Notes under the pieces: model-generated
Databases searched by the model: none
What the model was told of the DNA's origin: nothing
What the model saw: the letters and a program-made list of their open reading frames with translations, nothing else
Assembly: GCF_018873765.1 (NCBI RefSeq)
Contig: NC_057922.1
Coordinates: 39,080,321 to 39,144,320, forward strand
Source: Telopea speciosissima
Lineage: Eukaryota; Streptophyta; Magnoliopsida; Proteales; Proteaceae
Length of the DNA: 64,000 nucleotides
Reading direction: 5' to 3'
Shown here: positions 31,601 through 60,620 of the stretch, in pieces
Layout: each line of letters begins with the position of its first letter
Numbering within the stretch: the stretch's first letter is position 1
Position numbers and translations under genes: made by a program

Positions 31601-32127
31601 TTTATGTGATATATACGAAGAATGAAGGACAGTCTGGTAAACTTCACGCATCCTGGATACAACTCCTTCTTTGCATCTTCCATCAATCGATCAAATTTAT
31701 CGCCGACGGTACTCCCACCCTCTGTACACTCACCGGTGACACCATCCTCTATTTCTTCATTTGTATTTATTCCACGCATCTCATTTAACATAGTATGTGT
31801 AACATCATATGTTTCACCTTCCTCATGTACCCTTTGTGTTAACATGGTGAATTGTATGTGAAGATGAACCTTCCCCATGGTAACTCCATTTCGTATAATT
31901 CCATACGATTCCATCAACTATCAAATGTTCTAACACTGTATCTCTAGTCATGCGTAGTTGATTTACGCAATTTACACATGGGCATAGTATCCGATTTCCC
32001 TCTTTGCAATACTAGAAAATGCATACTCTATGAATTTGTTGACTTCTAATTTATATTGTGAAGACAATCGGAAATTTGGATCCCTTGACTTTCAATCCAA
32101 CTCCGGGCATGGTTTATCGGTGGTCCG
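28608..32127 (-). CDS. CACTA TNP2 transposase (Transposase_21 + DUF4218 + DUF4216), frame-broken in this copy
   Basis: Domains in order on the minus strand. First, an N-terminal transposase-associated region (about 31,900-32,127, garbled here but clear at 55.6-55.9 kb). Then the TNP2 core at 30,217-31,917 with CPNDCMLYWKGQE, CSKCGTSRY, FACPCCNK, YLGHRRFLP and HNLDVMHIEKNVCDSIIGTL. Then DUF4218 (29,830-30,192: SHDCHIMMQQLLPVALRGVL, LFPPSFFDIMVHL), a linker with FPAWFNEHV (29,065-29,310), and DUF4216 (28,608-28,904: LFHCDWVD, EPFVLPSQAEQVFYI) to a TGA at 28,608. This is the catalytic transposase of the CACTA family. Introns separate several parts. The frame break near 30,250 is absent in the other copy and the one near 31,830-32,000 likewise, so the gene may be more complete than it looks. 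Confidence 0.85.
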
Positions 32128-32858
32128 CAATCAAACTTGAGATAAGAAAACCAAAAACAAAGACTTAGATCGAAATCAATAGCTTTTTGTAGGTTTAAAA
32201 CAGATCTAAGATGAGGATAAGAACCAAGGTACCACAGAATAGAAATAAAAAGGTAAAGTAAGGCTGGAAACCGATTAGCGGAAAAGTATGATTTTTTTGG
32301 ATGAATGAAAAGTATGAAATTAAAGCAAGTAGAATCAAGATAAAAGGGAGAATTAACTTGTGCAATGTAGAGAAAATTTAAAGAAAACTAACCTGATCTA
32401 CTTGAGCAACGGAGAAAAAAGGATGAAGGCTATGAAGCAGGAATCCCACCGATCCTATCGAGCTGTCATGGGGTTAGGTGACCCAAGGCGGTGGAGAGGG
32501 CCAAAGTTGAAGGTGACACCAAGTAGGCGAACAAGGTACCCGCCTAGGCGACCAAAGCGCTGGACACCTAGGCTATGCCTTCACAACTATGGATCCTATG
32601 CCAAATCCATAGCGAGAACTATTGTCTTTGTTACATGTTACTTCATTCGAGATATATTAGCGTTGACCACCTTAATTAATCAGCCTTTTATTAGCAAGGA
32701 CCTAGCTTGATGGTTGAACCAAAGCTCTTCACAATGGCTCATTTATGTTGGATAATAATTTGGTAATTAAGATTGTCTCTATTATTCGAAAAATAGATCT
32801 CTTATTGATCTAGTAAATAGGTTAATAATAGTAAGGGCCACATCTACTAGGACTGCAA
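32128..32858. other. CACTA interior with CTAGGCG-type repeat
   Basis: 32,456-32,580 carries CCGCCTAGGCGACC and related motifs like the MITE-type repeats at 20.4 and 22.7 kb. It probably is the leader region of the TNP2 gene. No coding homology recognised. Confidence 0.4.
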
Positions 32859-33812
32859 CTATATTTTGGACATCATCGTGAAACCAAGCTTATTAGCCTT
32901 TTCCGGTGACAGCAAAATCTTGTGTGAGCATCTGAATAAGATATCCATGAAAGGCAAATTAGCTAGATCTTCCATCTTGGTTTGTCTCAGACCTTCCTTC
33001 TTCACAGTCTCTTCCCATATACTTCCCTTATCAGTCATGAATTCCGAAAACCGTAAATCCGATGAAAACATTTCTTCTTCAATCAATTTCACTCCAAATT
33101 TTATTCCAAATGCAGGCCAGATATCCTTCCAAGTGAAGCTTGGACCATTCGTGACATTAAATGCTTGACCTTTAGTAGATGAGATATTTTCATTTGTTTA
33201 TGCCCAAATATGTTGTTCGGCAACAAGCCGTGCATCTGCACCACCAATATAAACTTCTTCCCAACACTCTTTTGAACCTCCAAATAAGAAGGGAAGGTTA
33301 AGATATTTACATATTGAAGCATAGACACAAAGCCCACCTATGAAGTTATAATAAGTTCTATTACAAATCCCAATAAGCAATCTGTGTACGTGAAGCTGAC
33401 CAAGCCACCTTCCCTTCTAGTTTCTCCATCAACAAATCCTCAAGAATGTAGTTGAAGATGTGACCTTCATCAACTCTTGGGCTATCTTCATAGTAAAGAA
33501 TTGGTTTACTATTAGAAGGGCTAGGGCTAGTAAGAGAGAGATAGTGCTTACCTCTAGTTTGAAGAGAGACATGTTTTAATGCTTTGGCTTTAGGGAGAAT
33601 AGCATTCAAAGCATTGGACATCATAGCTTTGTTCATTCACAACACTCGGGGAATCCAATGGGTATTGGCTTGCCCAAGTGATCCAATACACATGAGTTAC
33701 ATCTTCAAGCAAAGAGACCTTCTCGTAGTTTGAATTGGGTCTAAGAGGTCACATGAGATGGGCGATAGTTAGAACTTGGAATTTGGAGTTTACCGAGCTT
33801 TACGAGCTATGC
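32859..33812 (-). pseudogene. PRISE-family 5-beta-reductase fragment (copy 1, noisy)
   Basis: Counterpart of 56,649-57,610, described there. This copy retains [54 protein letters not shown] and [20 protein letters not shown]. Extra frame changes sit at CAG/CTG sites (for example TTCGGCAAC against TTCAGCAAC), which the other copy lacks. Confidence 0.75.
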
Positions 33813-34828
33813 CATACAACTTCCATCCAACTCTAATTCTCTCAAACACATCCTTAGAAATGGCAAAAGGGATCGACAAAGAGGCCCCCACCTAGAATCG
33901 ATTTTTAGAATAGAAACATTGCCATCTGAGCCTTATTGGCTTCGTTTCTAATTCTGTGCAGCTACTTTCTATTTGCTATACTAATTTGTTCCTTAAGTGA
34001 TATTTTAAGGCTTGCTATTTTTTAGTTAAGTTGCTTTGTTTGCTACTTGATTCTAACCTTATATTTCTAATTTTAGTCATCACAACCTCTTGATTTTTCC
34101 CAATCTAAGCTGTCGGATTCACTTTAATTTTAGCAACCCATTCCTCACACATAATATGCGTTGTGATGAGAGTTGCAAGCAGATCTTCTTGATATTGCTC
34201 TTTTGGAGGGTTATTGGAGACTGCTTTGTTCTAGACCATAGCAGGCTATTGGTTCCATGACTTTGGGTGCATTTCTCAAAATTTTTTGACACGATTCTTA
34301 TGGACTTGATTCTGGTCCTTCGGTAATGTTGACTATGCAAATTTCAGGTAACATTTGAAACAAATTATTGGTATTTGTAAGTAATTGGAAGACGATTTTT
34401 CCCCCTCTTGTAAGTATTCTTATTCTTCTCTTTCTTTTCTCTTTTTTATTTGTGGCTAGTCATTCTGCACCACCATATCCTAGGTCTTGAACCAAACCAA
34501 CCCTGTCACCACTAAATTACAAACAAAAACTCATCACGCCCCAATCCATCTCAATATAGGGTGTGGTGAGGCAAAGCGGATCCTATAAAACCCCAACCAT
34601 ACATGAAGTACTAAATGTTTCTAATTTATATCAATTTTGAAATCCGAAAGAAATAATAGTTACTACATTCAATAAGACTACATGAGTCTAATGAGACAAC
34701 ATGCATAGTTGGTATAACAAGGTAGACAAATTACATAGCCGTTTTGTTAGGAAGCAATTAAGAGGTTCTTGAGAAAACATTCTAAAAGGAGATATACATG
34801 AAATAAACATACTATGGTATCCGTCGTT

Positions 34829-34892
34829 GAAAATTATATTTGGCTCACGGAACATATTTCTTACCGTCGCAAAAATCATATTTCTTGTAGTG
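34829..34892. repeat. Internal CACTA terminus
   Basis: GTCGTTGAAAATTATATTTGG through CATATTTCTTGTAGTG closely matches the last about 65 bp of the right end at 37,437. It is flanked by ATG, not ACT. A nested or recombined second CACTA end. Confidence 0.75.
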
Positions 34893-35408
34893 ATGCTTAA
34901 TCCCTACAAGCTGTTCGTTAACCCTCTTGGAGTTGTGTTCTTTGATATATTGTGAGTTCGACCTTTTCTTGGAGTTCTATTGCTAAAACTTCTCCTTCCT
35001 TATATTTCTCAATCTGCATGGATCTTTGAGATATTTGGATACTTCCTCCACCGCTAGTATTCTTCCATTGACCAGTTGAACCACATCCACTAGTTAGTTC
35101 TATTGAAAATTAGTCGAGTTACTAATTCGAACTTACTTACTAATTTCAGAACTATGTCTATATTTCCTAATTTAACCATTGGATCTCAATCACACTTAAA
35201 GGAGTTATTCATCCATCTTAGAGGCACTGTTGGCCTTGTTCCCCACCCCATCGAGTTCGATTTATCGGATATCAATAGTTTCAATTACGGTCTGTGGTCC
35301 TACCTTGTGGGTGATTACGTACTTTGTTGTTTTTGAACCTAGAGTAAAAAGAATTATATTAAATAAATGAACCTGGAGATTTGACTTGTTTGGAGTTTTT
35401 ATGAGTGA

Positions 35409-35600
<192 letters not shown>

Positions 35601-36749
35601 TGAATGCTTGTTACTTTGATCTCTATCTGCGGGTAAAACATATAAGATTGTACTACAATGATTTGAGTTTCTTTATTAGAGATCGGAAATAGTGAACCCT
35701 TGGCTCATTTACTACTAAGTAACTAGCCTTCAAGCATCAATGATGTTTGCCGATTATATTATTGAAGTGGCACTTTGTTCTATAATGAGGCAACTGATTG
35801 TTCAAGAGGTTCTAAACAAGTTCTGATTAATTTCGGGGTAAGGAAGAACAAATTTTCATTTAATTATTAGTATTATTATTTTTCAAGTTATGGATCAAGT
35901 ATTTTCACAATTAAGCCTCTTACGCCATAATCAAGTATTGCACTGATTAATGATACCTCCTACTTTGATTTGACAACCGGGTGGAGCAAGAGGACAAAAA
36001 ACTTAGAAATAGAGGACTTTGGGAAGTGCCTCATCCATGGCTTAATGTTTTTAAACCAAAATCACAAATAAAACCATGTAAAGACCTTCTGCTCAAAACC
36101 ATCTCGCCATTCCCCTAATGGACCAATGCTAATCTACTCAATTCTTAGACACTAGTAAGAATTAAACCGAGAAATGCTTATAGCTTTAAACGATATACAA
36201 ATGCTTTAAACCCAAAAAAATTAATTGTACAAATACTTATATCTTTAAACATATACGAGCTTTAAACCCCCAAAAAAAAAAAACATGCTCAACAAAACCG
36301 TGAAATGGAAACATTGCACTCAACCTTAAATAGAGAGAGAGAGAGAGAGAAAGAGACAAACCTTGCGAGAGAGAACTACTGTTGCCACCGTAGGCAAGCT
36401 GCTCCCGAGAGGGGGAGGCAGTAGAGAAGGGAGTGGGAAGGTTGCGAGAGATGGGGAGGCGATAGTAGAGAAGGGGTTGCGGCTAGGGAATCAAAGAGGT
36501 GTGAGTCCGATTGGGGGTTTATGAGAGATGTGAGTCCGATTGGAGGTTAGGGTTTCCACGATGAGAGAGGCTTTTGAAACACTTGAAATTGTTGGTGGCA
36601 GGTTTGAGATCGAAAAATGTAAAACTCATCGGAAAAGGAGGTACTCCGGCGATAATGACGACGAGGCTTGAAATCAACGGAGGGGAGGAGCTAGCGCTTG
36701 ACAGCTGATCTCTTCTCCGTCGTGCGAGAATGGGGTAGAGATGGTTGGC

Positions 36750-36751
<2 letters not shown>

Positions 36752-36812
<61 letters not shown>
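36752..36812. repeat. (GA)n microsatellite, about 60 bp
   Basis: Uninterrupted GA units; the second copy at 60,554-60,619 is a few units longer. Confidence 0.9.
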
Positions 36813-36814
<2 letters not shown>

Positions 36815-36888
36815 TTTCATGAGGGAATGGGATAGAAGAATGCGGGAAGCTGGAAACTCGGGAGCCCGCTAAAAATTTAAGGCAATTG

Positions 36889-37437
36889 GGCGACGGTATC
36901 TTTAGTAATGCTGTCGTTAAACATATCATAAAATCGCTGACGATAAGACTTATACCGTCGTTATACATGTATAATCCACGACGGAAAAATATATACCGTC
37001 GCCTAATTTTAGTTTCTATGATGAGATAATTTAGAGCCGTCAAGGAAAATAATATTTTGCTCCGATATTTGGCTACGGACCATGTTTCTAACCGTCGGAA
37101 AAATAAAATTCCACGGGAAAATACACACCGTTGCCCAATTAGAGTTTCCACGGCGAATAGTCACAAACCGTCGCCGAAAATAATATTACCTTACGCTACT
37201 ATATTAACCGTCGTAGAAAATTATATTTGGCTATGGACCATATTTCTAACCGTCGGAAAAAATAACATTCCACGGGAAAATATACACCGTTGCCCAATTA
37301 GAGTTTCCACGACGGATAGTCACAAACCGTCCGAGAAAATAATATTACGCCACGCTACTATATTAGCAGTCGTAGAAAATTATATTTGGCTACGGACCAT
37401 ATTTCTTACCGTCGGAAAAATAGGATTTCTTGTAGTG
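36889..37437. repeat. CACTA right end: subterminal repeats and terminal inverted repeat
   Basis: ACCGTCG/CGACGG motifs recur throughout, and the end is TAGGATTTCTTGTAGTG followed by ACT. Within it a 158-bp unit (TTGGCTACGGACCAT at 37,069, 37,227 and 37,385) is repeated in tandem two and a fraction times. Confidence 0.85.
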
Positions 37438-38454
37438 ACTCTAGAGAAATAAAGCAACGTAGATTGGGACTCCATCCCCCCCACCCAAATCTCTCAAACA
37501 TAAAAGTTGCACCTAATCGTTATAAAAATTTCCACTTTGTAATGATTTGACTTTACTTTCCTTCTTTGCATTTTCTTTACAACCAAAGGAAGCCTTGGAG
37601 TTTAGATGGTTTGGCATCACTCCTACATTCAGCAGAGACATGAAAAGAGACAAACCTGGTTCGCAATGGGGGAGAGCAAAAAATCTTGAAGAGCAATTAA
37701 AACCCAAAACTCGATCAATCTTCATTACCCATCAATGCACCCATTGACCACCTCTTTGTTCTTCCGTCTCTCTCTCTCTCTCTCGAACCGCTCTTCTTGA
37801 TTTTTTTTTGGTAGAAGCTTTTCTTGATTTTTGAAAATGGTACGAGAGAGAGGAGAGACGAGAGCGGGAAATAGGAGACGTGAGAGTTACTCTTTATTTG
37901 GGAGCGCTTACGTGGAGAGAGGAGAGAGAAGATCGGAGTGGTTTTGAGGAAAGAGTGGAGAGAGGAGAGAGAGAGTCATAAGTATATAAATAACAAATTT
38001 TGAAAAACTAGCCATTGGATTTGTGGCTGACTCATGTTGAACATCCGTAAAAGGAACCTCACAACCGTATAGGTGAGGGAACCTTAGAGGAAAAAAATCC
38101 CAAACCCCTACTCCCCACTAATTCGATTCCTTTCTTGGAATTTAAAACAAGAGATAAGAAGGGGGAAGGAATCGATCACTTAAGTGATCGTTCCTCCTTC
38201 TCTTGTCTTGGGCCTGCGATCAGCCCCCACATGTGGGCGATCAAGTTGGGCCCAAAAGCCCATTAACTTTTACATCCCCAAATCGTCGATCTAGTGAAAT
38301 CCTTTTACAATCTTACTATACAACTTCAGTCTTCAAGACCTCAGTTGCGAGGTTTTCCTCCCTTGCAACAGGCAGGAAAGCCTAAATTCAAAGAGAGATA
38401 TAGAGCGCGAGAGCCAGAAAGAGATGCAGAGGTAACCCTTGGAGAGAAGGAGAG
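37438..38454 (+). promoter_or_regulatory. Upstream region of CAP-D3, copy 1
   Basis: The CACTA element ends about 1.0 kb before the CAP-D3 start codon. The region holds the segment (37,709-38,099) that also occurs inverted at 3,754-4,123. It includes a TATATAAATAAC box near 37,984 that could be a TATA element, and a CT-rich tract. The transcript start cannot be fixed from the sequence. Confidence 0.4.
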
Positions 38455-39876
38455 ATGGAAGAGGGCATCCATCGAATAATCGCTGAGCTTGAAGCCGACC
38501 ACAATGGAAACGATCCAGCCTCAGCAACTTGCATTTCGGAGTCGACCCTTTTAGAGTTACAAGCACTGTTCGATAACACTAATACCCTCGATGCCGACGG
38601 TGACGTCTCCGACGACATCGATTACATATGGGAAGCTTTGGCCTCGAAGAACATATCTCCAACCGTGCTCGTCCGCCAGATCACCACTGCCATGGATTCT
38701 GGTCCCATTCACCTAACCCTATTAGCTTCCCAAGTGTATCTATTTATCCTCCTCTCCCCGAATTCCCCCGTTTTCACTCTCTTCTCACCTATCGCTTTCA
38801 TTTCGCTCCTCCGATCCATCAGACGGTCTCTCAAGCAGCAACAATCCGGCTCCCCACCTATAGCGGCAGCTGACGATAGCCGTGGTGGAGCACGTAAGAT
38901 CGGTAGAAAAAGAAAGGGCCGTGTGCAGGGGAGGCTTCTCACAACATGAGCATGGCTAATGATTATGCCGCCGGTGGTGATGATGAGAATAACGAGAATG
39001 TCCAGAATCGTTTGTTCGCTGTTCTTGAAAAATTGGAATCTGTTATGGGTCGAATTCACTTGGATCGATTCCCAGAGAGTCTGAAATCTTTAATTCAGAC
39101 TGTTGCCCAAATTCAGTAATGGCACTTGAATCGTACCAGAGTTCGGCAAACTATAACAGGTTAACTAATATCTGTTTCCGGATATTGAATGCAGTGTTAA
39201 AGCCTGAACACGGTGATCAGACCACCGCAGCAGTTGATGCTGAAATCACTGTCCCCGGCGATTCTTCTCTTGAAGTCACAGGCCCGAACATCAGCAATGA
39301 ATTTTGTAACGCATCAGATGATGACCTTGGCAAAGGGTCTGATGCTGTCAGGAAAGCAGTTATATATCTCCCAAGGTACCTGGTTCAGAAGGCACCGGAG
39401 AAGTCTGAACCCCGTGCATGTGCCGTGGAATCAATCATGGACATAGTTCGAGCAATGGAATATGAGGACCAAATTGGTTTTGCAGATTATGTGGTGAAGA
39501 TGACTCAGGGCAAGTCCCAACTCAGACTGCTGGCAGTCGATCTTATCCCCATTTTATTAATGTCTCTGGTGATCCACTAGGGGAAAATGCAGGTGAGGGA
39601 GTCCGTGATCTGTGGGGTTTGAAGTGTATGGAGGCTTTGATTCAGCGTTGTTCTGATGCAGTCCCAGGTATCCGAGCACGGGCTTTGACCAACTTGGCAC
39701 AGGTGGTGGGATTCTTCATCAGGTGATGTTGGCCAAGGCCCGGCTAGAGGAAGTGATTCCTCTAAATGAATCACAATTTGGGTAGTGGATGAGAAAATCT
39801 TCTATGTATAAAGGTATGGATGAGAAGGCAGCAGTGAGGAAATTCAACTGATTACAAAATCAACTTCGCTAATGGG
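38455..39876 (+). pseudogene. CAP-D3: CAP-D3 first exon, truncated copy
   Basis: Same start and sequence as 62,294 onward, but with several one- or two-base indels (G-run after GTGCAGG, ATTCAGTAATGG, GTTGATGCTG, CTCTGGTGATCC) and a badly garbled last 180 bp. The exon is cut after ACTTCGCTAATGGG and fused to CACTA interior at 39,877. Most lesions lie in homopolymers or CAG/CTG sites, so they look like consensus errors. The copy is either a partial duplication or an assembly artefact. It would encode only the N-terminal HEAT region of the condensin-II subunit. Confidence 0.85.
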
Positions 39877-42800
39877 TATTTTGAATCTTTAGATGCTTTT
39901 ACCTAATATTTGAACTTAATGGTGATAGGATAGTTTGTAAATCATCAATAACATGGTTAAATTTTTGGAGTGAACGAAGAAACTACGTAGAGAGAGCAAG
40001 ATAGCTAGCAACTCTGTCTCTTAGCTTGAAATATCCAATAAGTTTCATATACTTCTACTGCTCATACACCAAATCCAAATGAAACAAGCATTGCAGAGGC
40101 ATGTACAAAATATTTATGTTGCTAACCTTCTCTAAATACATCCGATAATTGAAAGATATAAATGACAAGGATATAGGTTTGGATTTGTGACTTATGCAGT
40201 GGGTTCTTTTGTGGTAGATAAAGTCACTCAAAACTAAATTATCAATGGGAAACAGTAGGTATTTTTGTTTGAAATATTTAAGTTGAAATCAAGAGACCAT
40301 ACCAAAGGGAGCCATTAACTCTTAAGGATTTTTGATGAAGAAGATCTTTATGGGTGGAGTTCCTACACCAAAGATAATACGAGTATTTTCCTATTTCAAA
40401 GCATCGGATTAAGCTATTCTTAGAGTGAGTGAGATCGAAGAGCCATACCTTATGTAACGATCTACAAGGGCTTTAAACCCCGGAAAAAAATGCTCAACAA
40501 AATCCTGAAATGGAAACATTGCACACAACCTTAAATAGAGTAAGGTGTTTTTCATCTTAAAAAACCTAACAAATATAAACAGTGCTCATTCCTCAAAGTA
40601 AGGCGTATAGGAAGGACTTTACCACAATTGAAAGAAGAAGAAAAAAAAATAGATGGATTTTTACCCCTGAAATGTAAAAGGAGCCTGTCCATCCCATAAG
40701 GTCCCCTTGAGATTAGCCATGTGGAAAAGCAATAAAGTGTGCATCTATACACATATTCCCATGTATAACACTTCCACACAAGCAATGATAACACTTCAAT
40801 TTAATCAAGCCTCATTTTTCCACAAACCACCTGCCTACCACCCAATAAATCATAGACCATTAAGTAGTTTTTGAGAAAGGGCATATCCGCATTTAGAGAC
40901 ATTAGGAGTTCTCAAGGCCAGTCCATTCATACAAATATTCATCAGACGTACTACGTTGTAAGCTCTCTAATCAATTCTGAATACCTCATTGACATCTTTG
41001 TTCTGCCATTCTATTTTAAAGCTCAGATCTTCACCATTGTGCTCCATTCGAGTTACGTACCACTAGCCTTCATTGAACATGATCAGATTAAAATTTGAAT
41101 GAGTGCTAAACTTTAATTCCTCGTTAGGATTTGTTTTGGAATCTCTTTCATGATCTTGCTTTCTATTCATCTTAACAACCTTTCCTCTTTGGAGTTTAAA
41201 ACAAAAAGAAAAGGAGCACCAATTCATGAGGCTCCTCTGTTGAGTCGGTAATTTTGAAATTTGATATTTTGTCTTGCTCTAATGTTTCAAATCAATTAGT
41301 TTATTCTTTATTTAATAGCATCTTCATATATACCTTGAAAAATAATTTCATGCTCGAAAGTATTGTTAAAATCCAAACCTTGAAAAGGCCTTTCATACCT
41401 TAAAACCATCACTATCTTAACCGTCCCCTCCTCTCTCCCTCTTTCTTCCATTCTGTACTTCTCTTTGCAACCATAAAACCTTAAATGAACATTCTTTTGT
41501 TATAAGGTACTAGGAGGTTTCTCTTTCTTATCATAGACCCATTAGAGCTTCACTAGATGGAAGACTCTTGAGCCATTTACAAGCATTATTCCTCGCTTCT
41601 TGTGGAGCAAAGTGTTACATGCAAATATGTTTGGTTTAAACAATACTACGACAAGTAAGCTCTCTCCCTCGTGTTATTGAACTCGATGTAAATGTATGTT
41701 CATGGAAGCAAAAGAGAAAACCCAAGTTCTTCTAGGAATTCATAGGCTTCTTAGACTAGATATTTTCGTGGTTTTCTTTGGTTTGTGAGTCCTTTCAGAG
41801 GTTGCATCTATGCTTTGACATAAAAATGAAATATGAACTACAAGGCACAATTTTATGCATTTTTAAATTTAACTTCCGGTGGTCATTTGCTATTCTATAC
41901 TGCATACATGCTATGGACATCTTGTTAAACATTTATCTGCAGTTATGTAGAAATACACAACTAAGAATTTTTTAATCGACTGCTTGCATGAGTAACTAGA
42001 AATTTTCAGATTATTGTAATAGAAAGATCCCGTAGTAAACACAAGGAATCCTGGAAGGTTGTGTTTATGGATGAATTCACATTTACAGACTAGTAGACTG
42101 CCATATGAAAACCTCCATGAACATAGATCCAAACCCCGAAGTTCGGAGGCACAAATGATTCGAAGGTTGCACCCAGAGATTCCAAAATCATATTGACAAA
42201 GAAATTGTTCCAAGCTAAAACAAAAACAATCTAACCCTGTTCTTCATTGACGCATCGAAAATGGTTTGTCTCCTACAAGTGTGACATGAGTACCACTATA
42301 GCTCAAATAGACTTTCTTACACTACGTACCCAACCTATGTGAGACTAAATTCCCTCCTATTCTTGACCATAAAATGCACTCACCGCATTAGAGGCTCATT
42401 TCTTATGGCATAATCTCCTTTGATACGGTTGTTGGCATGGTTGTTTGATTCTTGACCGTTGGTTCCATGTAGCTTTAAGAATTTGATGGATCTGATCAAC
42501 CAATGAACAGTTCAACCAAACCAAGCAATTTTGTGTAGTCTTGTTGTAGGATTACTTGATTTTATTGAAAACCAATTGGAACCGGACATTTCAAGGGAAT
42601 CCTAATTAGAGTAGGGCTCGTAATCTAATTGCAAATGTAGGGTAAATTAACAACAACAAAAATGTAATCATATCCTATTTTAGAAAATAATTAGGAAATA
42701 CTTTATTAGAGCTCGTATAAATGTTTAACAAAAGGCAAACAAATCAGAAATGTTAGATCACAGAGCTCGTAAACCATCCACAACCGAATAGAATATGATT

Positions 42801-44244
42801 AAATTTTCACCGTTGGATTAGACTCGAGATGTCAAACCCACGTGCTATATAAGCTTCTTCCTAAAAACATAGTGATTAATTCAAAACTACCCTTCATGCC
42901 AAACCAATAGAAGCAACTAGGTCTGCACTACGGATTAGAATGAACTCCCAAGAAGTTGGGAGGTACTAACATATAAGTAGCAAGCCATTCTCTCGAGCAA
43001 TCGTGCCCCATGTCATCTAATTATAAAATTGAGTCGGGCTGGGGTTTTCCATTCGATGAATCAAGTCTTAATACCATTCAATGCCTCCAACTCAAGAAGA
43101 TAAATCTAGGAAAATAGGGTCGTAGATCCCGCACTAGTATTCCAACAGCTCAAACTCGTATAAGATATCGTGTATCCATTAAACTTTATTCGTAAAGTTG
43201 AATACCAAACCGAGACAACAATATGAAGTATTATGGAAATTAGCACAAAGCAAACTAGTAGGAAAACTTGATAGAATAGGGGCCACAGCTTGTTTAGATG
43301 CTAGAATAAACTGGTCTTTTGTTGGGGTAAATTAAGTTGAAAAATTGAAGAGATATAACAGTCGGGAATTCACCTAGAATCCCCTTTGGCATCTACCAAG
43401 TTGAACCTAAGAATCTACTCGCAGCAAGTACCGATTTGACAATGTGTAGTAGAAAACTAAAATATAATTCATATACTTATTGGGGGTGGGGGGTTTATGC
43501 CTTTAAATCTATTTATAGAATTGAGTGGATGCTTGACTCCAATATGGACTAACCAAAATCAAACCCAAAACTTAAAGTCCATAATCAAAACAAAAACTAA
43601 GCTATCGATCGTCGATGGAGACTCCTATTCCATCTAGAACATTAAAATAACTCTTGAAATTCAAGCCGAATAATACTCGACCTAATTCCACCTTACAAAA
43701 TCGAATAAACAAATCAAAAGTGACTCCTAATTACTACGCCAAGACCAGGACTGTATTAGATTCTTAAAGACAAAGAACCTCCATAGTAGGACCAGATCAG
43801 CTCATCCTTCTCTTCTTCTTCGAGCATCGCATCTAGAATAAATAAGTGTAGTATAGTAAGAAAGAGTGTAACGCAAATCTGATCTCCAAACAACAGGAAG
43901 AATATGGAATTGACTAAACAAGAGAGCACTTCAATAAATCTCGTATATGAAATTTCTAAGTAAACATATGAATAAATAAGAAGATATGATTTATAGAAGT
44001 TAATCGGATAAGAATGAAAATAGAGGTGCCGCAGGTAGGAAATAGGCGTAAGACTAACTCGACATATTGGAAAATAAATAGAAAGTAGAAGATTGTAGAA
44101 GGGGAGAGAAGAACAGAATCCACAAGGAACCTCATAGCACTCCACAGTAAATGAGAGGGGGTGGAGATACCGGGATTCTATCCGAGAGAGGAACAAATCC
44201 ATTTGCAAGTTCGGATGCCTGGAATCCACAAGGAATCGAGAATC
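39877..44244. other. Copy of CACTA interior 16,054-20,417
   Basis: No gene recognised; differences from the first copy are mostly at CAG/CTG sites (for example GAGCTCGTAAACC against GAGCTCAGAAACC). Confidence 0.5.
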
Positions 44245-44384
44245 ATAGTTAGCAAGGGAAAGCGACCATGGCATTTTAGAGGGGATAGAGGTTTATGGCG
44301 ACATCGCATGACGGCAAGGCATCCGCCATGGCGTCCAAGGCAACCAAGGAGCTCGACACCATGGCGACGCCTTAATAACTATGC
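44245..44384. mobile_element. hAT-like MITE, second copy
   Basis: Counterpart of 20,418-20,562 with the same ends; here the flank after it reads CGAGAATC, matching the left flank. Confidence 0.6.
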
Positions 44385-44929
44385 CGAGAATCGCCCAAGC
44401 CACAATGCAAACCCTCGCAAAGCACTCACGTAAAAGAAGTGGGGGAGGATCGGGATTCTATTCCATAAAATGTGGGGTTGACTTAGTAGCCTTGCAATTT
44501 ATTTGTAGACTAAGAAAAGGACCTTGGCCTCAATCAAATACGATTAGGATTTCCTAAAACTAGTTTAAAAATGAGAAAGCGAATCGCCACTGCCTATAGC
44601 AAGTAGCCTAACAGACACTAATTAGGACTTAACATACAAAAACAGTCTAATCAACTTAGATCGATAGAGCAGTCAAGTCCAAGATCTACAACCAAGTCTA
44701 GTTTGCGAACGAAACAGAGACATTTAGTAACCAAAACAAGGTCATTGCACAATAAGTTCTATTTTTCTCGAGCACTCTTATAATCAGTGCATCAACCATC
44801 GCACCAAAGATAATAACACAGAGAATAAAATGCATAGAAGCCAAACTAGTCCACATGAGTTCGAAATTGTTTCAAAATAGCACATGACATGCAAATATGG
44901 AGGCAAACAAAGACAAATAAATTGTATAC

Positions 44930-45040
44930 AGCCGCAGTACTGGAGTCGCATATCCATAGGTCCCCATGACTCTAGTAGACACATGGCTCTTATCACCGCT
45001 TGACCATCCTTGGCCAAACCAAAATCGTAAAGTTTGCATT
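44930..45040 (-). pseudogene. RLCK-VII kinase exon fragment, second copy
   Basis: Counterpart of 21,109-21,222. It keeps the bases for GYA.TPVL-like garbling of GYAAPEYLATG (GCGACTCCAGTACTGCGGCTG). The CCAG missing from copy 1 is visible here while the CAG/CTG triplets preserved in copy 1 are damaged. The two copies together point to the same underlying normal kinase sequence. Confidence 0.75.
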
Positions 45041-45315
45041 GTAGCTCTGTGATTTTAATTTTCCAAAACAGTTTAGTGTTAGCAGATATAGGTCTAGTAA
45101 AATGTAAAAGCTAAAAGCTCAATTTCTGTTTAATCGAAGAGAAATTAAGAATCGCTGAGAGGTTGAAGATATTGCAGTGATCTAGTACCCAATGGAGCAA
45201 AGGTTTGATTCCTATCTAGTTCTTTACCCAAACTTTTATTTTTTTCTTTTTAATTCTGTATTGGGTTTTTGGAGGTGATGAGAATAGTCTCCTTTCTTTG
45301 ATTTTATTACTTTAG

Positions 45316-45565
45316 GTTGATTTGGTTACCATGCTAGAGAAGGCCATTAGTTATGTCAATTTTCTTCAATTGCAAGTGAAGGTGATTACTTAACTCAATT
45401 ATTCAATCAAAAATTATCTCTAACCTTAAAGAGTGTACATGAATATAATAAGAATTATGTTTGGTTCAGTTTTGGCTATGGATGAATTTTTGGCGGTCAA
45501 GGTGGAAAAGCTCCGAGGTTTCTCAACTAAAGGATGCCATTGATGCAATTCTGTCATCAAATTAA
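45316..45565 (+). pseudogene. bHLH (RSL class) last two exons, second copy
   Basis: Exon 45,316-45,381 is identical in sense to 21,497-21,562. The last exon has lost a G at the acceptor (TTCAGTTTTGG) and is scrambled at the DEFW codons (TTTTTGGCGGTCAAGG). The tail KDAIDAILSSN and TAA are kept. Confidence 0.8.
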
Positions 45566-46182
45566 GACGTAGATTGAAGCTCAAGCTCAAAATAAGAGAC
45601 AAAGAGCAAACAGCACAAGGAGTAGAATCAAGGCCAACTCTACAACAAAGAATCGTAACAATCAACTCCTTAAACTACCGTAAACCTAATAGAGTAAGAG
45701 CAGAGAAGACTTCTCCCTTTCTTCTTTCGAGTGCATTGTTAAATGTATTAAAGAAAATCATTATGTAAACATAACTTGTAAATGAGACCTCTTTAGATAC
45801 CACCTAGAGCTAATGTCATAAAGCTAAATATTGATGGCAGTCCTTGGATAACCTGGGTCCGTCTTAAGGGAACTTAATCATAAAAATTCAGGTAATATTT
45901 GAGTAGCGATTCAACATCATCGAATTGATGTCTCTCTCTCTCTCTCTCATCCTCGATGAGGTCATATTCTTTTGATCAAATAGTTTTTTATGTCAAATGA
46001 CTTTTCATCCTTCAAGCTAACCTTGGCACAAAGCTAAGGTGACCAAACTTATAAGAAGAGATACCATTAAGTACATAAGAAAATACAAATTTCTTTTTGA
46101 TGAGTACAGACTATAACATAAATAAAAAATAATAACTTGCATATCCTAAGAAATTATACTTATGTGTTAAGAGCAAAATAAC

Positions 46183-46389
46183 CTTTCGGAGAAGTTTTAT
46201 TGTAACATTTTGCAAAGATCAACATAGCTTGAAGCAGCTTCATGCTTGCTTTCCGACTGAAAAGAGGACTATTGATAGAGTCAAAAAGGAGCATCAAATA
46301 ATAATTTAAGTGTTTAAACAACAATATGTACATCAATACGTTCAAATGACAATCAGCTATTTTGATGTAGGCAGATCCACCTTTATCCC
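46183..46389 (-). pseudogene. Alpha-SNAP fragment, second copy
   Basis: Counterpart of 22,376-22,579 with the same two exons. The ESKHEAAS end has an extra base near 46,255 (TTTCCGACTG against TTTCCACTG), and the GATGCTGCAAAATG codons are altered at CTG/CAG positions. Confidence 0.75.
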
Positions 46390-48776
46390 CTGAAAAACCA
46401 ATTTATCAGAGGTATTAGCAAGCACATAATATGAACTTGTTGTATTTCCAATAAAAAATTTAACAATTAGCTAATTCAATTAATTTCAGAAGAAAAAAGA
46501 ATTGATTGTTGGATATTTCAAATCAATGTTATTAAAATACGTTGGCAACCCTAGGCAATGCACCATCTCATCAAATAGGCACCGCCCGGAAATCCAGGCT
46601 TGCATCTAGCTCAACCTCACCTAAGTGCTTCACACCTAGACCTCCATGTACCACCTAGTTGCCTAGGCGACACGGGTGTTACCTCGACGTAATCGCTTCA
46701 AGCATAATGAAAGAAAGGTGATAACATTTTCAAAACTTTCACATCATTAGTAAGCTGAGAATGAGATTCGATCATCAATTAAATAAATCATGCACTCATT
46801 GTTTAATAGTTATCACATCCAGTGGCTCACCCACTTCCAAACTGCTCAAAGAATTCCATCCTACCAGGGCCATATGGCCATATCCAATGTAATCTTTATT
46901 TCTCAATTGTTCTAGTCTTTTTCCTCCGAACTTCTATAATTGTGTAGTAGTACATTATGGATCAAGTATAAGGTGATGAAGAAAAGGAAATGGAAAGAGG
47001 GTTACCGAGAAAAGGAAGGGGGAGATAAAAGGTGATGCAATGGAAAGAGGGTTACCGAGAAAAGGAAGGAGAAGAAAAGGGATGGAGAAAAGGGAAAAGA
47101 ATAAGAGGATTGTCTTCAGTGTTAGGTGAGTATCTGGACCCACTTCTCATTAATGGCCGACTATGGAAATTTCTATCTGTTCTCATAACACCCACAAGGC
47201 CACAACATGGAACCTTCTCTCTCTCTCCATGAACCAAATAAAATCCTTCCTCTTTTACCTAAAAAGAGTTGGGGAGGATGACAAAACCATAAAAACAAGT
47301 AGAAAGCAATAAATTTTGATAGAGAGCAGTTATATACGTCCCATTAAATTTCCCGCCAAAGTCAAAGCAAATGCTATCTAATTCTCTCAAACGCATCTTT
47401 AGAAATGCCAAAAGGGATCGACAAGCAGCCCCCAACCTAGTGAGCAATTGGTAACCAACGCCCACCCCTCGATCACCCCCTTTCCCTCGTACGCAGCCTT
47501 ACTCTAGATGAGTCTTACGTTGATCTAAAAAAGTCTATTACTTTTAGGAGTTTCAGCTTTTAAAAGTTTTTTTCCTTTAAGAAAGAGAGAGTAGTTAAGA
47601 GCCCTAGAATAGTCGAAGTTCCTACTTTTCCTTTTAATCAATTTCAATACCTCATGGACATCTTTGTCCGCCATTCTATTTTAAAGCTTCGACCTTCACC
47701 ATTGTGCTCCATTCCAAGGGTGCAGCCAATGGCCTTAAATCAAGGAGGAAGCAAAGCAACCAAGAGCAAACAAGTTAGAAGGCGCTTAAATTTGAATTTG
47801 AAGTCCTGGGTCCCAAGCCGAGGTAAAAGGAACAGAAGCAGATATGTGGATCTCGAGAATTCAATTGAGCAACCCAAGGACTGCCTCATGGTTGATAAAC
47901 GAATGCGACTCAAGATGAAAATATAAGACTCGTAAATGTGGGATCTAAGAAGGTCCACCTCACCATCCAAAAACATAACAAGATTGACACACAAGAGGTT
48001 CTAGAATGTCCATATTTTCTAATTCTTGCTGCCTATATTACTTGTATATCTCTTATTCCAAGTTGTTGGAGTTTTCTAAAGTCTGTTCTCTTGATCTTAG
48101 TGCATAATTTTGAATACAACTCGTTTTAGCAAATTCCTAGTTTCGCTTTTATAGACGCCATGATTCCCATGACCCATAATTCATGTATGATGTTCTTACA
48201 AATAACTTTCCATGAAATGTTTAACCAAATATCAAGAGAAATCATTGAATTTTTGCTTGGATATGTGTTTCTAATATTCATGATTGAGTCTTGGAAACAA
48301 ATACGAAGTAATCATTGTTTTGATTTTTAATTTGTTTTCCAAATATCTTCTAATTTAACCTTCTCAATGAGGGTCCACTTATTGATTCATTTACTTACCG
48401 ATCTAATTGTTTATTTTCGTAAATCGAAGTTTATTTACCATTTGAGTCCGCACTTTCCCTTCTTTAGAATGATGTTTTAAAGAAGAAAATGAAAGAAGAA
48501 GAGTAGAATGGGAAGAAGAAGTTGAAGGAGACAAAATATAAGAAGCATTGCGTAAGAGATGGAGAGTGGAGCTGCTGCCCTGTTGCAACAGTGGTGGAGG
48601 TCATGTGAAACCATATGAGATGGTGAAAGGGTGAACAGCTGGTGGATCCACCGATGAGTGTTGTGAAACCATATCAGCCGGGTTCAAGAGATGTCCAACA
48701 ATGTTAGGTCGCTCACACTATCAATCAATCTGGCCAAGAAGATTGATAACTCTTTCAGCTTAATAGCCACGAAGAT
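46390..48776. other. Copy of CACTA interior 22,580-24,959
   Basis: Same repeats as in the first copy, no gene recognised. 48,480-48,601 is a further copy of the 14,025-14,146 block. Confidence 0.45.
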
Positions 48777-48983
48777 GATGAGGAAGCAGGTGAGGATGAC
48801 AAAGTCTGATGAAGTGGATGACAAGCAATCAGACTAAAACTCTTCTTCATGACAAGTGAAGAAGAAGGAATCTCAAGTTGAACACCAAAAAGCCTCGACC
48901 TCCAACAACACTTCCCGTGTAAATGGTGCAACTCCTGAATTAATTATGTCCCATGTTCCCACAATGTGAACATTTCCGCCCAT
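48777..48983 (-). pseudogene. MYB-related N-terminal fragment, second copy
   Basis: Counterpart of 24,960-25,168, with the same AATTAAT frame break, and further small changes (TGGGCGGAAATG for TGGGCAGGAAATG) at CAG/CTG-type sites. Confidence 0.7.
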
Positions 48984-49939
48984 TTTCACCTGACAGAGAA
49001 CTTCAAAACCAACCACCGACACCCACACATACAAACCAGAGAATGAAAGATAATGAGATACTCTCACTAGTGACTACTACTTAGGTTTGGTTGTGGAATA
49101 CAGGTATATATATATATGAATGTATTTGATGATGGAGGATGAAGCGTTACTAAGAAGGAAAGTGTAGGAAGGATAATTGGATGGACATGGTTTTGTTGTT
49201 GGATATTTTCCATTGTGGGACTCCAAATCAAAAAGAAATACAACAGTTAAGGAGAGTCCGACCACCATCTTTGTGTGGGTCAAAAATTTTATTTTAAAAA
49301 AATCTATAAATAAAGAGTACCTATAGTTTGGAAGACATATTATAGTGTTTAGGTGGGGACCTAGTTAATTATTTATTTTCATCTACAAATGCATTTATCT
49401 GTTCATCCATTTGGTACAAATCCCATATTAATATATTTTTGTTGTTGGGTTTTGGGAATGAGATTCACAAATTCCTAGTGCTAATGTATGATCTAAATTA
49501 AAGCTTTTGTATGATGATCCAATCCCTCTCTTGGCATGATATTTTCTGTTTTGCTCCAATGAGTCTCACGGCTTTAAAACGTGTCATATCCAATAAATTA
49601 AGGAGGTTACTCTTTATCTCTTCCTAACTCGTTGTAAGACTACATATAGTCCCAACAACCTACTCAATGGTGCAACCCACCTGCACCTCATGAGCCTACT
49701 TCATGGAACATTCCAAATGGATAATTCCATATGGAATGTAATAAGAGGGGTGAATTAATACAACATAAGAAAGAAAGGGTGGGAGAGTGTGAGTGTGTGA
49801 GTGTGTGTACGGGCAGCAAGAGGTGGGTGAGTTAGCCATAGCGAATGATCCATGAATTAAAAAAATTTCTCAATATGTAAGGAACAAGGGAGAGTTTAAA
49901 GGACTTGGAATATTGAACTCGGTTTGGAGATCCATGTAC
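48984..49939. other. Copy of CACTA interior 25,169-26,139
   Basis: No gene recognised. Confidence 0.4.
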
Positions 49940-51487
49940 CTCTCATTTGGAAGCTTGTGACAAAGACATAAAATCCTGAAATGATTTCATATGTGCCCCA
50001 AATTCAGCCAAGATTTGTTCCTCGCTTAGCCAACCTTGCATCCTGCTCAGCTTGCTCTCTTTCCACCGAGATATTTCTCTCTCCCGTTGAGAGACAATCT
50101 CTTTCAACTCGATCATTTTGCTTTCTTAGGTCCGCAATCCGAGATGCATTATGTTGGGTGCGCATTGCCTCTTTGCCCCACATCTTTGTTGGGGTTACTC
50201 CAAAGACCCATCAAGCGGACTCGCATGAGAATCCCGTCCAGAAGACCTTTGAAGATTTCTTCCTGACTTCGTGGTTTTGTTGATCTTCTTCACTTCTCTT
50301 ACTAAGCTCTATGTTTATGCTGCTCGCAAGTTATAATGAACAAGAACACTTTAATTTAGGGAATATAGAAGAGGTCAACTCAAATAGCTAAGTTGGAATG
50401 CAAACCATTATCCTTTCGATTCAGGGTCTATGAAATTTCCGCCTGCACGATCTATGTGTCAAATCAAACATCTCAATACGAGAAGGAGATAAACGTTCGA
50501 TGCTCATTTTTCTTAAAAAAAAAAAAGAATAGAAAGAAATATCGAAATTGTTGGGACTAAGAGATAGCCAACTTCAATAAAAGAAATATTAATGTAAAAC
50601 AAATCACTTACCTTCCTTTCACGTAATACGCAAAGGAAGTACTTCCCGTCGTATGGCGCATTATTTGTTTGGCCTTAATATCTTTATTTCACCGTGAAAG
50701 TTCCTACCAAGAATATTGCATTCAATTAAAACTACAAAGACAAGAACGTAGTAAAAAGTATTTAAACTACATTCATTCTATAGAAAAGTATGTTTACCAA
50801 ATGGTTATTGTCCCCCCACATCTTGAACATAGCTTCCCATTGTTCTTTAGACATACATTTCAGATCAATGTTTGCCATACGCTCAATCCGTCTCATACTT
50901 ATTGAAATGTTCGATTTCAAGAGAGATTTGTAATCCCTCCATCGAGCACAAAGTTTCTCTAGGATCCAACCCGGCTAGATTCCGTATGTCAAATTTCTCC
51001 TAAAAGAAAATAAAAGAAGATATTAGTGATCATATTATTATTATGTAAGCCATACAAATTATGGATCTGATATTAATAATACCATGACTTTGGCGCATGC
51101 ATCATCTTTGTACACTTGCGGCACTTTTCGCCAATCAGGGTACGTTAATGGTAACAAGTCGGTGTTTTTTGCTAACAACCCAATCCAAGTAGCTATTTTG
51201 GCTGTCCTTGTAGAGTTTGCTTGGCCATACTTGTTTACACCAATACAAATTTTTTCCCCACTAGGCATGTTTACAATGTCTTTTGCCATTGTTTTGCCCC
51301 TCTTGCCTCTTCCCCTACGAATCGTAAATGGCCCAACATAAGAAGAAATTAATCATCGTCAGAATAATAATACTTGACATCAAATTTAAAGAGTAACTTT
51401 ACAATTGACTAACCCGGAGTAGTAGCGCCACTATCCTCCCGGGTCCAATCCTCCGACCGGAGGTCGGGTCAAATCATCCCGACTCAT
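49940..51487 (-). CDS. CACTA Transposase_24 gene, second copy, noisy
   Basis: Counterpart of 26,140-27,685. The exon with NMPSGEKICIGVNKYGQ (51,059-51,320) is clean. The other exons carry extra changes at CAG/CTG sites, for example GACCGGAGGTCGGGTC against GACCCAGGAGGCTGGGTC in the first exon, and CGACGGGAAGTAC against CGACAGAAGTAC in the HTTGS motif, where homology supports CGACAGGAAGTAC. Confidence 0.65.
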
Positions 51488-52408
51488 GATTCTTCCCTGC
51501 TTCACTCCCGCAAAATCAATAAACTCAAATCATATATCGATAAATTTTCTATATGACAATATCAATAGTGTAAACTATTGAAAGTAATTAATCCATAATT
51601 ACATGACTTTTGGTGTGAAGTATACATTAATGTAAGCAACGGATATGACCCACTATCAAGTAAAAAATCCAAGTCTTTCTATGTCACTACAAGACTAAAA
51701 ATCGATATAGAATTGGGAGATGATGATCCAATTGCTCAATCTATCTTTCCCTCATATAGAGAAATAAGACCTTTAAATATCTCTCTAATTTGATGTCTCT
51801 CATCGTAAAATTGTGTGGTTGCATTTGTCAAGCCTCGAAACATAAAATGTTGTATGGAGTGTTATGGTGATGTATCTACACATTCTCGCACGCTTTGTTC
51901 TCAATCGAGCATGGTTTATAATTCAACCCGTATTCATTTTCTTTGGATGATTTGATTCCTTGCATTCCATAAAAATAAACAAGTAATAGAAAAATAGAAA
52001 TAACGACTTATCCAAGTTGGAGAAAGAGGAACTTATGGTTGTGTTTATCAAATCAAAAAGAGAAGAAGCTTAATCTATGTCACTAAAAGACTAAAAATCG
52101 ATATAGAATTTATTGGATATTGACTTTGAATGTTAGTGAAGGAATAAAGAACGCATTGCATTTAAGTCAAGACATTTCCATTTATTTCTCAAAGGATATG
52201 CGACTTACTTGATTTTAATGTTCAATCAATTTGATATATCATCATCTAAACTTTCCATTGAATTGATCAATCCGATGGGGGTGTCAATTATAATACCTTC
52301 CACATCGATCTTACCCAACTAAGACCGGCATCACCATTATCCCCCTCGAATGTTCTACATATTGTCTATATTGTAATGTACTGCGGTATATGTCTCCGAT
52401 CTAAATCA
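51488..52408. other. Spacer between CACTA genes, second copy
   Basis: Copy of 27,686-28,607, non-coding. Confidence 0.4.
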
Positions 52409-55400
52409 TCACGATCCGGATCCCCGCTGTCCCATATCAAAATATCCCTACTTTTAGGCCTCATGGTAACTTGCCATTCAGGCCTATGAGAATCTACAAT
52501 GTAAAACACTTGCTCGCTTGTGATGGAAGTACAAATGGTTCGGCAAGCTGATCTCGGCTACTATACAATAAATGGTTAAAATTGACAAGTACAAACCCCA
52601 ACTCATCTTCCTCTACTCCCTTTCGTTATCAACCCAATCACAATGAAATAATATTACTTTGAGATCCTCTCGCATATTCCAATTCAACTACTTTTTTCAA
52701 CAAACCATAATACGTGATAATTCCTTCAATAGGATGTCTATCTCTTGAACTCGGAGTAATCTTCCAAATTGCCGTAATAAGGACCCCGCTATTTTGAGTT
52801 TTCCTATGCTTCTCATGTGACTTACTACGAAACTTGATGCCATTATAGATGTATTCATTATAACTTCTCACATCCAAGTTAGGACCTCGAGCAAGCCATC
52901 TCGATATGATGAGGCACCTCCTCCCCATTCTCGGCGTAGATGCAAGATCCGATGACACAATATTAAGCCACATATAAGAAGATATAGGCTCTAACCTAGC
53001 TCCCAAACAATTGAAATGTGTTGCACTTACATGCTCATTGAACCAAGTGGAAACTCCTTAGCATGTCTTGTCGAAATAAGATGTGGGCGAGATTTACGAC
53101 CCATTAATCTTTGCAACTTCTCTTTGTGGAGCCTAGAAGTATGTACATAATTTTCTTAAGAACTATTACTTTCTCATAAACATATAAAATATAAAGTTCA
53201 ATCAAATATAAATATATTGTAAATAGAACATTGATATGTAATACTTACTTTCGGTATTCATTTAATCCATCATAGTTCTTTAGCACGCACCGATGAGCCT
53301 GGTCCCTTTCTTGAATGTCTAGTCGTAATATCTCACACTTCCCTACAGGCCTACCTGTTCTTGAGAAAATAGAGATTGGATGTTCTAGTTCGTTGAACCC
53401 GCATTTCTCGATTGCTCTATTCGACCTTGTTTCCACACCTTCAAAGTATCTAGAGTAGAAAGTCAAACACTCATCCCCTATGTATCCTTCTCGCTATTGA
53501 TCCTCCGGCCGACTAAGATTGCGCACGTAGTCCTTAAGTTGTTTAAGGAACCTAAACACAAATAAATTTATGACATTATTTAATGATCATAATATGAAAC
53601 CTACACTAGTAGCTTCACTTTTTAAGCCAAAAATTTCAAACTAACCTCTCTATTGGATACATCCAACGGTATTGCTCGACCAGCCAAGCTAGCTTCATGG
53701 GCTAAATGAATAATCAAGTGAACCATAATATCAAAGAATGAAGGTGGGAAAAGCTTTTCCATATTGCTAAGTGTTATGCCAACACTTTCACCAAGCCTCT
53801 TAAAGTCCTCCTCTTTCCCAACATTACTACACAAATCCCAAAAAATGCACATAATTGTATTAATATAATGGTAACATTCTTAGGCAACACACCACGCAAT
53901 GCTACCGGAAGAAGTTGTTGCATCATGATATGACAATCATGGCTCTTCATTCCTAATATGTTACGTTCTTGCACACACCGTGAGATATTACCGCAAAGGC
54001 CATCCGGAACTTTTACACCCCTTAAAACGGAACAAAACAAATCTTTGTCCAGAGACATTGTGTAGCATGCCGAGGTATGAATATTTTATCCTTCCCTTCA
54101 ATAAACTTTGGTGAAGAACTGATCGTATTTCGATCTCTCTCGATCTAAACGTGCCTTCACGTTATCCTTTGTCTTTTTTTAAGATCCAACAATGTGCCAA
54201 TGATACTATCACATACGCTCTTCTCAATATGCATCACGCCTAAATTGTGACGGATTAGATTAGATCTCCAAGATGGCAATTCAAAGAATATACTCTTCTT
54301 CTTCCAATTAAATGGAAGCTTTGGGCTGTTTTAACTTCCTTCGCTTCTTCTTCTTCTTCCCATGCTTGTCAATAATATCTTTCCCAAATAAAGGAAACCG
54401 AACACCTTCCAGCTCCTCCAAAATATCGTAACCCGATAGTGGCTTTGGTTGTAGTTCATGTTCCTCATAGCCATCAAAGCTCTTTTATCACGCCGAAATC
54501 TATGTCCTTGGGGAAGGAATCGACGATGACCTAAATAATGTGTTTCCTCCCATATTTAAGCCAACGAGAAGTAGTATTCTTGTTGCAAAGATGGACAAGC
54601 GAAAACACCTTTAGTACTCCAACCCGATAATACCGCATAAGCCGGAAATCATTAATGGTCCATAACAAACATGCATTTAGCTTAAACTTCTCCTTCTTAT
54701 ATGCATCGTAAGTTACAACCCCTGTTCCATAATTCTTTCAACTCTTCTATCAATGGCTGTAAATATATATCTATATCATTGCCAGGTTGTCGTGGTCCAG
54801 GAATAAGCAAAGTAAGCATGAGATACTCGCTTCATGCACATCCATGGTGGCAAATTGTAAGGCATCACAACAACAGCCATATGCTATACTTTTACACTCA
54901 TTGACTTGAACGGGTTGAATCCATCACTAGCTAATCCAAGTCTGATATTACGAGGCTCCTCACTAAAAGTAGGATGCAACTTATCAAACTCTTTCCACGC
55001 TTGCCCATCACCGGGTGTCGTAACCTTTGATCGTTTGTACGACCCTCGTAGTGCCACCTCATGTTAAATGAGGTTTTAGACGACATGTATAACCTTTGCA
55101 ACCTTGGGATCAATGGAAAATGGCGTAATGTCTTAGCGGGGATTTTCTTATCTACTGATGTATATCTTGAAGTACCACATTTGGAGCAAGTCGTGGCTTT
55201 CTCTTGTCCCTTCCAATACAACATACAATCATTTGGGCACGCATCAATCTTGTTGTAATTAAGCCCCAAGTCCTTGATGATCTTCTTTGTTTCGTACATA
55301 TTTTTTGGTAAAGTATTCGGCTCGGGAAGTGCCTCTTGCAACAACTCTAACAAAGATTGTGAATGCTTTGTCGGTCATTTTGCAAAGGCATTTTATGTGA

Positions 55401-55918
55401 TATATACGAAGAATGAAGGACAGTCTGGTAAACTTCACGCATCCTGGATACAACTCCTTCTTTGCATCTTCCATCAATCGATCAAATTTATCGCCGACGG
55501 TACTCCCACCCTCTGTACACTCACCGGTGACACCATCCTCTATTTCTTCATTTGTATTTATTCCACGCATCTCATTTAACATAGTATGTGTAACATCATA
55601 TGTTTCACCTTCCTCATGTACCACTGTGTTAACATGGTGAATTGTATGTGAAGATGAACCTTCCCCATGGTAACTCCATTTCGTATAATTCCATACGATT
55701 CCATCAACTATCAAATGTTCTAACATCGTATCTCTAGTCATGCGTAGTTGATTTACGCAATTTACACATGGGCATAGTATCCGATTTCCTACCGCAATAC
55801 TAGAAAATGCATACTCTATGAATTTGTTGACTTCTAATTTATATTGTGAAGACAATGGAAATTTGGATCCTTGACTTTCCAATCCAACTCCCGGGCATGG
55901 TTTATCGCTGGTCCGCAA
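52409..55918 (-). CDS. CACTA TNP2 transposase, second copy
   Basis: Counterpart of 28,608-32,127. The N-terminal region is readable here (55,259-55,918: KLEVNKFIEYAFSSIAVGNR then CPCVNCVNQ, the transposase-associated domain with its Cys-x-x-Cys), in frame with the start of the TNP2 core. The junction into DUF4218 is also in frame here (CSVLRGVKVPDGLCGNISRC, 53,774-54,058), unlike copy 1. The core between 54,060 and 54,930 is broken by many small indels, mostly at CAG/CTG sites. Same family role as copy 1. Confidence 0.8.
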
Positions 55919-58680: not shown

Positions 58681-59206
58681 ATGCTTAATCCCTACAACTG
58701 TTCGTTAACCTACTGGAGTTGTGTTGCTGATATATTGTGAGTTCTGACCTTTTCTTGGAGTTCTATTGCTAAAACTTCTCCTTCCTTATATTTCTCAATC
58801 TGCCCAGCAGATCTTTGAGATTATTTGGATACTTCCTCCACCGCTAGTATTCTTCCATTGACCAGAAGTTGAACCACATCCACTAGTTAGTTCTATTGAA
58901 AATTAGTCAGTTACTAATTCCGAACTTACTTACTAATTTCAGAACTATGTCTATATTTCCTAATTTAACCATTGGATCTCAATCACACTTAAAGGAGTTA
59001 TTCATCCATCTTAGAGGCCTGTTCGACCTTGTTCCCCACCCCATCTGAGTTCTGATTTATCAGATATCAATAGTTTCCAATTCTGGTCCTGCAGTCCTAC
59101 CTTGTGGGTGATTCTGTACTTTGTTGTTTTTGAACCTAGAATAAAAAGAATTATATTAAATAAATGAACCTGGAGATTTGACTTGTTTGGAGTTTTTTAT
59201 GAGTGA

Positions 59207-59398
<192 letters not shown>

Positions 59399-60552: not shown

Positions 60553-60553
<1 letters not shown>

Positions 60554-60619: not shown

Positions 60620-60620
<1 letters not shown>

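Follow-up and report, generated by a model that had tools for sequence, protein, structure and literature searches.

The window analysed here, a 64,000-nucleotide stretch of the Telopea speciosissima genome, carries a head-to-tail repeat of about 24 kb that, judged from its letters, is very probably a false duplication. The damage that distinguishes the two copies fits putative CHG methylation miscalled by nanopore sequencing together with ordinary consensus error. This part of the reading, which an earlier reading of the sequence alone had also proposed, is well supported because the errors are specific to a sequence context, their products gain CG, and an exon lying within the poor copy is spared. 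We are highly confident in the core reading of a false join combined with CHG miscalling, whichever assembly step was responsible. The artefact is of two known kinds, and their combination is instructive.

The repeat and its contents

The tandem duplication claimed by the sequence-only reading was recovered by self-alignment, in which the two units share 95.6% identity over 24,124 columns. The repeat and the frames within it are as follows.

16,053–39,876 (+): unit 1 of the tandem repeat, 95.594% identity to 39,876–63,735
39,876–63,735 (+): unit 2 of the tandem repeat, from self-alignment with unit 1
30,217–31,917 (−): Tnp2-type transposase, open for 566 aa in unit 1 (ORF; PF02992, E 1.8e-102)
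56,988–57,596 (−): PRISE (progesterone 5-beta-reductase/iridoid synthase-like) fragment, 202 aa, open in unit 2 (ORF and homology)
62,243–63,838 (+): condensin-2 subunit D3-like, intact frame in unit 2 (ORF; PDB 9f5w_D, E 8.7e-10)
38,404–39,876 (+): D3-like frame of unit 1, interrupted by small indels (ORF comparison with unit 2)

The frames found in the window comprise Tnp2 and MULE transposases, the PRISE fragment and the condensin-2 D3-like gene. The 566-aa Tnp2 frame is open only in unit 1, the ORF listing giving none as long in unit 2, and at the position of the PRISE fragment in unit 1 (about 33.2–33.8 kb) there is no frame of at least 150 aa. The D3-like frame of unit 2, 531 aa and open, extends beyond the end of the repeat into single-copy sequence.

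A CACTA-type border, CACTACAA, occurs at 27,886 and, in reverse complement, at 34,885 and 37,430. The PRISE fragment and the Tnp2 frame are both enclosed by the CACTA-type termini at 27,886 and 34,885 of unit 1, and the fragment is possibly a captured gene piece. A complete CACTA element was considered and dropped, as the 3 bases flanking 27,886 differ from those at 34,892; an inverted-repeat scan, of which 25 of 82 pairs were listed, gave numerous AG/CT runs and, among the matches listed, no border that clearly belonged to an element. To the left of the repeat lie the MULE transposase domain frame (PF10551; 8,246–8,770, −), a neighbouring frame at 7,252–8,139 (−) with no Pfam match, a CACACACCCCCC-rich tandem array at 12,227–12,589 (period rows 33 and 95), and a tRNA gene at 1,358–1,440 (−) that scores 49.4 bits in Rfam and for which ARAGORN gave no clear anticodon.

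Errors at CAG and CTG sites and their switch between copies

Differences between the units were taken as events after realignment and sorted by heuristic rules, which placed 246 of the 643 events in a directed CAG/CTG class, 143 in homopolymers, 25 near CAG/CTG and 229 in no class, some of the last being by eye split or doubly damaged CAG/CTG sites. A directed event is one in which CAG or CTG has been removed from one copy (149 in unit 2 and 97 in unit 1). Site counts used the cleaner copy as reference, that is, unit 1 for 16,053–31,700 and unit 2 for the stretch matching 31,900–38,404 of unit 1, with the gene outside. Among CAG/CTG sites, 176/273 were altered in the first stretch and 74/122 in the second, against 37/331 and 2/125 for CAC/GTG; the corresponding counts for CAA/TTG were 45/778 and 9/307. 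In the first of these stretches CAG/CTG is strongly enriched over CAC/GTG and GAC/GTC combined (Fisher p 3.8e-57). The table of differences by trinucleotide context that the sequence-only reading had called for therefore contains the enrichment, and its claim that differences concentrate at CAG and CTG stands. Such clustering at a methylation motif, seen in CAG/CTG against CAC/GTG, is what a systematic nanopore error caused by 5-methylcytosine requires. CCG/CGG sites were raised as well (40/97 and 13/71), the excess in the left stretch probably stemming from damage products already present in unit 1; unit 1 being an imperfect reference may perhaps also account, in part, for the 37/331 of CAC/GTG.

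The products of the damage are directional. At 250 altered CAG/CTG sites, recounted for gain or loss of CG and not conditioned on product, CG was gained at 154, unchanged in number at 94 and lost at 2; for 205 altered control sites lacking a neighbouring CAG/CTG, gains (28) and losses (25) were similar. Written on the CTG strand, the most frequent products of the directed class were CG (43), CCG (34), CTCG (25), ACG (14) and TCG (12); a further 48 were too complex for assignment. These products may reflect a basecaller model that was trained on 5-methylcytosine mainly in CG and writes CG on meeting 5-methylcytosine elsewhere. Single C-to-T or G-to-A changes of the deamination-like kind make up 12/250 altered sites, and with 154/250 gaining CG, deamination is disfavoured as the cause.

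Homopolymers form the other large class, as the earlier reading had held, and they change side at a compatible place. In a tally that drops the 6/143 events of equal length, unit 2 is the shorter copy in 60/93 cases left of the switch, a weak bias, and unit 1 in 37/44 to its right, so that deletions prevail in the poor copy, as expected of nanopore consensus error. Substitutions not readily explained by damage are rare: of 44 isolated ones, 39 lie within 4 bases of CAG/CTG or CG and 5 away from both.

Fitted with a single change point, the directed events damage unit 2 in 141/177 cases to the left and unit 1 in 61/69 to the right. The change point lies, within 2 log-likelihood units, at 31,561–32,272 of unit 1, and 0/5,000 permutations reach its likelihood. 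The homopolymer events give a switch of their own, best placed at 32,247–32,291 and within 2 log units at 30.8–34.7 kb (0/5,000 permutations), which is consistent with the CAG/CTG switch and less sharp. Two stretches follow from these fits, the edges of the poor block being good to several hundred bases.

31,900–55,700 (no strand): contiguous poor-quality block, the right third of unit 1 and the left two thirds of unit 2 (change point)
20,295–24,300 (no strand): stretch of unit 1 itself damaged, both copies poor (three-switch model)

The single contiguous block described by the sequence-only reading at 31.7–55.5 kb is thus retained with its edges moved to about 31.9–55.7 kb. Its description of unit 1 as mostly clean and unit 2 as damaged from 16 to 31.7 kb agrees with the 141/177 directed events and fails between 20,295 and 24,300, where a three-switch model gains 14.5 log units and the 44 directed events are shared equally between the copies, 22 each. 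In this stretch damage seems to affect both copies, perhaps because polishing reads could not be placed, which indicates that the outer parts of the repeat were imperfectly polished. Its description of unit 1 as damaged from 31.7 to 39.9 kb agrees with the 61/69 events and fails in that CAG/CTG damage spares the D3-like gene at 38,404–39,720. The equality of block length and unit length, which it had offered as evidence, carries no independent weight, since one copy being poor at each point, with a single switch, yields that length by construction.

The assignment of the clean copy can be compared with related sequence. The 160-bp repeats inside the units agree with each other at 96.1% in unit 2, here the clean copy, and at 91.4% in unit 1, here the damaged copy. 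Matches outside the repeat favour the presumed clean copy at 3,754–4,123 (86.4 vs 83.5%), 14,024–14,146 (92.9 vs 92.0%) and 13,847–13,901 (85.5 vs 83.6%), tie in identity at 10,283–10,320 and 10,340–10,378, and in one alignment, to the simple AG repeat at 2,240–2,276, run against the assigned polarity.

The gene edge and the junction

Within the poor block of unit 1, only 1/56 CAG/CTG sites of the D3-like exon (38,404–39,720) is touched, against 74/122 in the adjoining stretch (p 1e-15), and the lone touched site is a change in the length of a G run. In unit 2 coordinates the proportion hit falls from 44/59 in 58,681–61,244 to 3/12 in 61,245–62,242 and to the 1/56 of the D3-like frame. Between 38,878 and 39,734 the exon of unit 1 departs from that of unit 2 by 2 substitutions and by 7 indels that break the frame, and 9 events fall in the 1,346 bp that precede the final 127 bp of the unit. 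Frame-breaking indels where CAG/CTG sites are intact mean that two kinds of error are separable: general unpolished error runs throughout the block, and CAG/CTG error is found only outside the gene. CHG methylation is typical of transposon-rich plant DNA and usually absent from expressed genes. The D3-like exon is presumably free of CHG methylation and would then show the general error only, so that the errors, as far as the letters tell, seem to mark out where methylation stops at this gene.

Two G/A differences lie 21 bp apart in this otherwise well-called exon (38,878 and 38,899 of unit 1 vs 62,717 and 62,738). They are perhaps haplotype differences, in which case the poor block might come from the other haplotype.

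The last bases of unit 1 are of a different nature.

39,757–39,876 (+): end of unit 1, a mosaic that mixes the true end with letters from left of the unit (7-mer and alignment tests)
15,969–16,052 (+): left flank whose letters recur collinearly in the end of unit 1 (7-mer and alignment tests)

Events are far denser here, 9 in the final 127 bp of the unit vs 9 in the preceding 1,346 bp. The end of unit 1 contains 56 novel 7-mers, of which 11 occur in the left flank and 10 of these collinearly; control windows, which overlap each other in this and the following test and are thus non-independent draws, had a maximum of 8, and 0/3,348 reached 10. The offsets of the shared 7-mers (23,788, 23,799 and 23,808) approach the 23,824 of the junction. 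In an alignment test for the mosaic, the gain was 31.5–35, compared with a control mean of 1.5–1.7 and maximum of 25 (0/4,290–4,292). The right flank as a source shares 1 of the 56 novel 7-mers, and a mosaic with the right flank was tested at the start of unit 2 and is absent there, so the trace of the join is one-sided. The junction at 39,876 is itself head-to-tail with no added bases. Since the end of unit 1 carries letters of the left flank, we read this junction as a bad join, at which the left flank and unit start seem to have been force-aligned with the end of unit 1 and start of unit 2 and mixed into the consensus. We know of no biological process that produces such a flank mosaic, and head-to-tail joining of overlapping ends does produce it.

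Origin of the second copy and its meaning

Under the reading we prefer, the true locus would hold one copy of the unit. Two ends that truly overlap by about 23.8 kb would have been set head to tail during gap filling or layout, one running rightward to the right end of the unit and the other beginning roughly 80–110 bp left of its start, and joined at 39,876 across some 120 bp of forced, spurious overlap, which could have made the observed mosaic. Both ends would be nanopore consensus or corrected reads that were never accurately polished, with the outer parts polished; 5-methylcytosine in CAG/CTG (CHG) of transposon-rich DNA would have been miscalled, mostly as CG, and homopolymers shortened. 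The sequence-only reading had left two artefact options, an unpolished consensus or a falsely inserted unit of raw quality. The unpolished consensus fits better, and insertion of a single raw read is disfavoured because 9 events over 1,346 exon bases are too few for a raw nanopore read and suggest a consensus or corrected read. Fusion of two unpolished ends is favoured since it gives the poor block its defined outer edges. A possible though lesser share of the core reading belongs to a version in which the draft already contained the duplication, the better copy drew the polishing reads and the complement stayed damaged. This version explains complementary damage with one switch, and left-flank sequence placed at the junction would supply the mosaic end; nevertheless, reads split over near-equal copies should give either a patchwork or a middle in which both copies are clean, whereas the switch is confined to about 700 bases. 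The doubly damaged stretch at 20.3–24.3 kb does not decide between these two versions.

A real and very recent tandem duplication, with the equivalent of one copy unpolished, is improbable. A head-to-tail junction with no added bases and few residual substitutions would suit a young duplicate, and the real tandem duplication expected to show comparable quality and independent substitutions is not what was found, as quality differs by block and 5/44 isolated substitutions stand apart from damage; a brand-new duplicate, however, would likewise show few independent substitutions. Against it, a true junction should have reads like any other site, yet the end of unit 1 holds left-flank letters and is far denser in events than the rest of the exon. 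Still less credible are two real copies or haplotypes of different epigenetic state, the methylated one being miscalled: the damage is methylation-like and the G/A substitutions in the exon could be haplotypic, but frame-breaking exon errors where CAG/CTG is intact mean that quality differs, not methylation alone. Genuine mutation of methylated CHG sites, by deamination or a repeat-induced process, has the plant CHG context and the 12/250 deamination-like changes in its favour, but the prevailing gain of CG is the opposite of deamination and indels and homopolymer changes go along with it; we give this explanation almost no credence.

Comparable errors have been described, each in part. In bacteria, 5-methylcytosine at Dcm sites (CCAGG/CCTGG) that was missing from basecaller training leads to systematic nanopore consensus errors, with homopolymers as the next class (PMC6591954, Genome Biol 2019). 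The present errors resemble the Dcm-site errors as reported there in that 5-methylcytosine would sit in a CAG/CTG core, and differ in that the effect seems to extend to any CAG/CTG of transposon-rich DNA and that the errors mark a half-copy of a repeat. Bacterial modification-mediated nanopore errors at GCAGC and GCTGG remain after polishing (PMC10687267, Commun Biol 2023); as described, that case concerns five-base motifs and involves no duplication, unlike the one here. Plant methylation has been put forward as a likely cause of reduced nanopore accuracy under general models (PMC9749173, Plant Methods 2022), in a study whose main text does not use CHG, CTG or CAG and so gives no site-level table under those terms. 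False (homotype) duplications are documented in vertebrate assemblies (PMC9516828, Genome Biol 2022), and, as described there, involve neither methylation-type errors nor a flank mosaic. Among the matches listed in the open-licence literature no title announced a table of CHG errors in plants, which is no claim that one is unpublished.

Two artefact checks that need no reads are suggested by these results, namely a table of CAG/CTG-to-CG differences between repeat copies and a test of whether letters of the far flank are mixed into the end of a repeat. Removal of the spurious 24-kb duplication would take second copies of Tnp2, PRISE and part of the condensin-II D3-like gene out of gene-family and copy-number counts. 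It is quite probable that the finished sequence alone records CHG methylation: in an unpolished nanopore stretch that lies next to a polished twin, CAG/CTG sites lost while CG is gained would map silenced DNA and its edge at a gene. If this is true, public plant assemblies with such false duplicates would be minable for CHG methylation without raw signal.
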